Source of the DNA: Nitrospirota bacterium
GTDB lineage: Bacteria > Nitrospirota > Thermodesulfovibrionia > Thermodesulfovibrionales > Dissulfurispiraceae
Reading direction: 5' to 3'
DNA: 49,271 nucleotides
Assembly: GCA_021847795.1 (NCBI GenBank)
Contig: JAJZPZ010000008.1
Span: 1-49,271, forward strand
The notes beneath the pieces were generated by a model, which had not been told where the DNA came from, did not search any database, and was given only the letters and a program-made list of their open reading frames with translations. Shown in pieces: positions 17,088-17,525 of this stretch (position 1 is the first letter of the stretch; each line of letters begins with the position of its first letter). The translations under genes and the position numbers were made by a program.

Positions 17088-17115
17088 TTGACAACCTTGC
17101 AGGACCTGCTAGACT
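17088..17115 (+). promoter_or_regulatory. sigma-70-type promoter for the DUF1540 gene
   Basis: TTGACA (17088-17093) and TAGACT (17110-17115) are separated by 16 bases. Transcription from here would start near 17123, run through the 38-bp inserted segment and the second copy of the 35-bp repeat, and reach the ATG at 17229 after a leader of about 105 bases. The second TAGACT (17183) has no -35 partner. Confidence 0.6.
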
Positions 17116-17212
17116 TTTCTTATACGGAAGGGTCATTTCACCCTACGGGCTGCAAGCGCTTCATATGCTCTGCAAAGCCTGCTAGACTTTTCTTATACGG
17201 AAGGGTCATTTC
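17105..17212. repeat. 35-bp direct repeat flanking a 38-bp inverted copy of the pfpI 3' end
   Basis: Bases 17105-17139 and 17178-17212 are identical (CCTGCTAGAC... to ...GGTCATTTC). Between them, 17140-17177 is the exact reverse complement of 10634-10671, which covers the last codons and first stop base of the PfpI gene. This is the structure left by a replication template switch: jump to a distant inverted template, copy 38 bases, and return 35 bases upstream. An assembly error is the alternative. Confidence 0.85.
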
Positions 17213-17228
17213 CGGAGGAGGTGCGCTT

Positions 17229-17525
17229 ATGGCCGCTATCGTCACGATGTCCAAGGTTTCTGCCTGTGAGGCAACGGACTGTTCTTACAATATAAGCAAG
17301 GAATGACATGCAATTGCCATCACTGTAGGTGATGGTTCCTGTGCCTTCTGCGACACCTATCTGAAGTCGGACAAAAAGGGAGGGTCGCCGGAGATTACCG
17401 GCGGAGTAGGGGCATGCAAAGCGGATGACTGCGCATTCAACAGGCTGCTGGAATGCACTGCAGGGAGCATACTGGTCAGCAGACACGAAGAGCACGCGGA
17501 ATGCAAGACATACCGGGAAGCATAA
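17229..17525 (+). CDS. DUF1540 protein with in-frame TGA; candidate selenoprotein
   Basis: The ATG follows GGAGGAGGTG. Codons 1-25 read MAAIV...CEATDCSYNISKE and codon 26 is TGA (17304-17306). The same frame continues as HAIAITVGDG, DTYLKSDKKGG, GGVGACKADDCAFN, LLECTAGSILV and AECKTYREA, to TAA at 17523. This is a complete 98-residue double DUF1540 protein. In DUF1540 each repeat has C-(4)-C-x-(Y/F)N followed by a third Cys in C-x-A, and the TGA replaces exactly that third Cys of the first repeat. The second repeat keeps Cys (LLECTAGSI). A hairpin lies 9 bases after the TGA. The best reading is selenocysteine insertion; a recent TGC/TGT-to-TGA nonsense mutation is the alternative. DUF1540 proteins are small, Cys-rich, presumably metal-binding proteins of unknown role. 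Confidence 0.75.
17316..17336 (+). promoter_or_regulatory. candidate bacterial SECIS hairpin in the DUF1540 gene
   Basis: CCATCAC (17317-17323) pairs perfectly with GTGATGG (17329-17335), and a G-U pair extends the stem, around the loop TGTAG. The loop begins 17 bases after the TGA and has G as its second base, which fits the general bacterial SECIS description. Caution: the encoded ITVGDG motif itself favours ATCAC/GTGAT pairing, so some of this hairpin could arise by coding constraint. Confidence 0.5.

Follow-up and report, generated by a model that had tools for sequence, protein, structure and literature searches.

A DUF1540 gene in the window (the whole stretch of 49,271 nucleotides analysed here, from a Nitrospirota bacterium) carries an in-frame TGA at a position where its relatives have cysteine. 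The reading slightly favoured here is that the gene encodes a selenocysteine (Sec)-containing DUF1540 protein, a plausible candidate that stands as a singleton. The first-pass annotation had called it a probable new selenoprotein, an assessment that is kept only in part. On its side are the sel genes and other selenoproteins of the genome, the invariance of the cysteine, the hairpin after the TGA, the lack of decay beyond it and the absence of the family from the main text of a 2026 catalogue of prokaryotic selenoproteins. Against it stand the single copy, cysteine in every relative, the accessory nature of the paralogue, a hairpin that is largely a by-product of the peptide and the occurrence of other genes broken by nonsense codons. 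In weighing these points, the placement of the TGA at a cysteine was estimated to contribute a factor of ~4 and the hairpin a factor between ~3 and 45, and on the other side were counted the low prior odds of a new family that is a singleton, in an accessory gene and at a probable metal-ligand position.

The reading frame and its cysteine column

The frame that opens at ATG 17229 is interrupted solely by the TGA at codon 26 and then continues for 72 codons to TAA 17523-17525, with coding sequence on either side of the TGA and an otherwise clean reading frame (Table 1). The read-through product, with cysteine written for the TGA, matches Pfam DUF1540 (PF07561) in two stretches at 40.8 bits, which is above the curated cut-off of 22.1 bits. 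It consists of two repeats with four cysteine positions each, C13-x4-C18-x7-U26-x14-C41 and C63-x4-C68-x7-C76-x15-C92. The TGA occupies the third cysteine position of the first repeat, the place held by C76 in the second, and both this alignment and the open frame with DUF1540 motifs beyond the TGA are as the first-pass annotation had described them. By its spacing and invariance, the four-Cys set of the first repeat looks like a metal site, an Fe-S site or a thiol cluster, and the TGA position within it has the look of a metal ligand, not of a CxxU redox motif. No NCBIfam model was matched by the protein, a search of solved structures returned nothing significant, and an AlphaFold2 model based on 20 sequences had a mean pLDDT of 37, making it unusable as a fold.

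Table 1. Features of the DUF1540 gene and its upstream region, in positions of the window
Feature	Positions	Strand	Basis
Sigma-70-like promoter: TTGACA 17088-17093, 16-nt spacer, TAGACT 17110-17115	17088..17115	+	by eye
Exact 34-bp direct repeat, copy 1, in promoter/leader	17106..17139	+	sequence comparison
Exact 34-bp direct repeat, copy 2	17179..17212	+	sequence comparison
Ribosome-binding site GGAGGAGG, 7 nt before ATG 17229	17214..17221	+	sequence
DUF1540 gene, 98 codons with TGA read through	17229..17525	+	ORF, Pfam match, 24 homologous loci
In-frame TGA, codon 26, candidate Sec codon on invariant Cys column	17304..17306	+	alignment
SECIS-like hairpin: 8-bp stem plus closing U-G, loop UGUAG 17324-17328	17316..17336	+	predicted fold

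The promoter block is similar to one found upstream of the Cys-type homologues L013, L004, L002 and L003, and its presence, like that of the ribosome-binding site, counts in favour of the selenoprotein reading. The 34-bp repeat is a duplicated part of this block, and its second copy lacks the TTGACA box.

Homologues were sought in 100 relatives and in 396 genomes of the phylum, and 24 homologous loci besides the window were recovered. The column of the TGA, whose alignment with cysteine had been proposed as a check, is cysteine in all 24. A search of related genomes for other DUF1540 frames read through TGA had also been proposed, and it yielded no second copy. A DNA pattern for the motif with TGA, which is limited to homologues that share the spacing and the AITVG sequence and which divergent ones can escape, found the window copy alone among 230 genomes of the class. 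Across 84,980 species the same pattern had two matches (L047 and L048), both rejected as TGA homologues on translations that do not contain DUF1540. A Pfam-profile search that reads through stops, and that matched the window gene by its second repeat only, detected DUF1540 in 20 of 229 genomes of the class, none with an internal stop. One further candidate, L012 (G045), was discarded as a chance match outside the motif. The TGA form of DUF1540 is a singleton in everything searched. At least two independent TGA-conserved sequences are the criterion for naming a new family, which is not a property of the protein, and all searches together gave the window copy only. On the Cys-type side, a two-repeat DUF1540 gene with 47% identity lies at L104:2001-2282 on the IMG/VR contig IMGVR_UViG_2503754016_000001, which is classed as viral.

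The same genome encodes a Cys-type two-repeat DUF1540 protein (L013) that is 60% identical to the window protein. It shares with the window protein the two repeats, the eight cysteine positions, the AITVG and GACK motifs and the promoter block, and differs in having cysteine where the window has TGA. L013 is a syntenic orthologue of L004, the Cys-type copy in a same-genus genome, and both are followed by genes that were named by eye from their translations as release-factor-like, CBS-domain, archease-like and RtcB-like. The window copy is preceded by a HAD/ATPase fusion gene and followed by genes for YceI and a Prc-like protease. The same-genus genome has its HAD/ATPase and protease genes next to each other, and no DUF1540 or YceI gene separates them. 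The window copy is an accessory paralogue, and the syntenic Cys copy that its genome also carries is intact.

The hairpin downstream of the TGA

A hairpin of 8-9 bp is predicted to begin 9 nt past the TGA, with a stem formed by GCCATCAC (17316-17323) and GTGATGGU (17329-17336), a G-U pair at the base, and a U-G-U-A-G loop that begins 17 nt past the TGA. This agrees with the earlier description of a hairpin whose loop lies 17 nt on and has G as its second base. The whole element, at -13.2 kcal/mol and with a spacing of 17 or 18, fits the bacterial SECIS model (PMC13188914). The rules applied were 16-37 nt to the loop, G in the first two loop positions, a stem of 4-16 bp and an MFE <= -7.5. The window sequence passes these rules, but so do 48% of synonymous recodings, in which the same residues were recoded with the codon usage of the genome, and 7 of the 24 Cys homologues. 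More stringent comparisons set the window further apart: 10% of recodings are as stable over the whole element, and ~2% reach the stability of its 27-nt core or form 7 bp or more in register. The core has -11.9 kcal/mol, compared with -11.2 kcal/mol for the best Cys homologue. Two Cys relatives, L003 and L005, also have a hairpin in the same register, and a valine codon dictates the GU of the loop. An Rfam search of the region gave nothing above the gathering score.

As evidence for a SECIS element, the hairpin retains its fit to the bacterial model and is otherwise weaker than had been claimed, given the recodings that pass and the similar folds of L003 and L005. The first-pass annotation had itself cautioned that the ITVGDG sequence favours the hairpin, and the recodings and Cys relatives bear this out. 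The conserved AITVGDG peptide largely accounts for the hairpin, which constitutes modest evidence for Sec.

If the TGA is decoded as Sec, SelB loaded with Sec-tRNA(Sec) would attach to the hairpin beginning 9 nt past UGA 26, and Sec would be inserted at the third position of the four-Cys set (C-x4-C-x7-U-x14-C). The gene would have originated by one TGC/TGT-to-TGA change in the accessory paralogue. A Cys-to-Sec step of this kind would have been eased by the ability of the conserved AITVGDG codons to fold into a SECIS-like hairpin beforehand. Since Cys relatives already form it, changing one base could turn a gene of this type into a Sec gene at once. Sec insertion, the role of the residue in a metal site and a benefit of selenium over sulfur are what we infer from these data. 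The fuller reading, a new selenoprotein family with Sec at one place of the DUF1540 four-Cys set (metal, Fe-S or thiol) and a one-step origin from the latent AITVGD hairpin seen in L003 and L005, is put forward tentatively and falls somewhat short of an even chance. If it is true, the selenoproteins gain a small Cys-rich member of unknown function, whose Sec probably occupies a metal-ligand position and not a CxxU redox motif, and the hairpins of the Cys relatives provide a test case for a Cys-to-Sec gene change by one mutation.

Selenocysteine decoding in the genome

The genome contains selA (C265), selB (C120), selC (C6:687-780, an ARAGORN tRNA-SeC with anticodon TCA (UCA)) and selD (C270), the last of the Sec type with an in-frame TGA of its own. 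The absence of these four genes had been named beforehand as grounds for refutation, and all were found. Two FdhA genes have TGA in the context CAR(L/V)-U-HAPTVA. In both, as in the window gene, the TGA is followed by C, the rarest base after terminal TGAs of this genome (14 of 122), and this counts for the Sec reading. A double selenoprotein gene, MbdU, lies at L097:1455-2885 (G000:C140) with TGAs at 1497 and 2697, and its product matches NCBIfam NF045648 at 765 bits (cut-off 600). To judge from these genes, for the Sec apparatus as well as for other selenoproteins, the genome makes use of Sec decoding. The counts of selenoprotein genes and of nonsense-bearing genes (see below) come from 645 kb of stretches, partly picked for Sec-related genes, and also rest on a coding-score scan of limited sensitivity. 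TGA is an ordinary stop in this genome, as was stated at the outset. It ends 122 of the 302 ORFs of at least 300 codons, and reassignment of the codon was rejected since it terminates ~40% of long ORFs.

Both SelD and FdhA resemble the window gene in having an in-frame TGA with a hairpin at the SECIS position, and FdhA has the TGA-CAY-GC context in common with it as well as a small GU-containing loop. Unlike the window protein, they are members of selenoprotein families of long standing, in which many species have Sec. MbdU, encoded in this genome too, has Sec in what is annotated as a metal-binding protein, and an 8-bp stem with a loop of 3 nt comes after its second TGA; it differs from the window protein in its unrelated sequence, its two Sec codons and its place in a recognised family. 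A further parallel is provided by the deep-Sep singletons, such as a DUF523 protein, which combine a single TGA sequence with Cys homologues, a SECIS-like hairpin and a Sec-using host (PMC12013277). These belong to different families, and their authors too ask for verification, but they show that singletons with Cys homologues have been published in recent work. None of the papers searched brings up DUF1540 and selenoprotein together, and PF07561 does not appear in the main text of the 2026 catalogue. The statement that a Sec-containing DUF1540 protein had not been described holds to the extent of that main text.

Alternative readings of the TGA

It is nearly as likely that the TGA is a recent nonsense mutation, the main rival to the selenoprotein reading. 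A redundant accessory paralogue would have been inactivated by a TGC/TGT-to-TGA change, translation would end after 25 residues, and the hairpin would be a by-product of AITVGDG. The unique TGA, cysteine in all relatives and the like hairpin in two of them speak for such an event. So does the genomic arrangement, with a syntenic Cys orthologue elsewhere in the genome and a window copy that is missing from the corresponding place of the same-genus genome. Interrupted genes were also met in the 645-kb sample of this assembly: nuoI is broken by TAG at L078:3948 (G000:C15) with domain matches that span the stop, and family matches likewise span a TAG in an ABC-2 transporter gene at L101:6400 (G000:C267) and a TAA in an enolase C-terminal fragment at L086:10139 (G000:C17). 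The interrupted nuoI is a pseudogene or an assembly error, and single-nonsense genes, or errors resembling them, occur in the assembly. Of the possible nonsense changes in the window gene, ~26% would be TGA at a cysteine.

The sequence beyond the TGA limits how old such a mutation could be. Relaxed selection past codon 26, together with cysteine in all relatives, had been named as a refutation of the selenoprotein reading; the relatives do all have cysteine, but decay was not seen. All 23 of the downstream positions conserved at >=90% are intact on a long branch of 0.415 substitutions per site, and the age of a silencing stop is limited to less than ~0.055 neutral substitutions per site (95% bound). 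Synonymous sites are saturated, and hence dating by dN/dS was set aside and the bound derives from conserved residues only. An old pseudogene is excluded because all 23 residues are intact, whereas a recent one is compatible with the data. A nonsense mutation would also have had to fall by chance on an invariant cysteine, ahead of a hairpin reached by 2% of synonymous codings, in a genome that uses Sec. If the selenoprotein reading is false, the gene serves as a warning that a Cys-rich peptide with hairpin-favouring codons can mimic TGA at cysteine followed by a textbook SECIS.

A sequencing or assembly error, the true codon being TGC or TGT in an ordinary Cys-type DUF1540 gene, is improbable. 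The sequence is a single copy from a fragmented assembly of 273 contigs, and the practice of the field, as in the Sargasso Sea selenoproteome study, is to treat single TGA sequences as no more than candidates, in that study for this very reason (PMC1088965). Consensus substitution errors are rare, however, and one would have had to strike precisely this base in a frame that is otherwise clean.

UGA followed by C is generally held to be leaky, and C is the rarest base after terminal TGAs here (14/122), but low-level read-through by a near-cognate tRNA, which would give little full-length protein and need no selenium, is the least probable reading of all, given that both FdhA Sec codons share the TGA-C context and that Sec is the simpler reading in the presence of the full Sec system and the Cys column.
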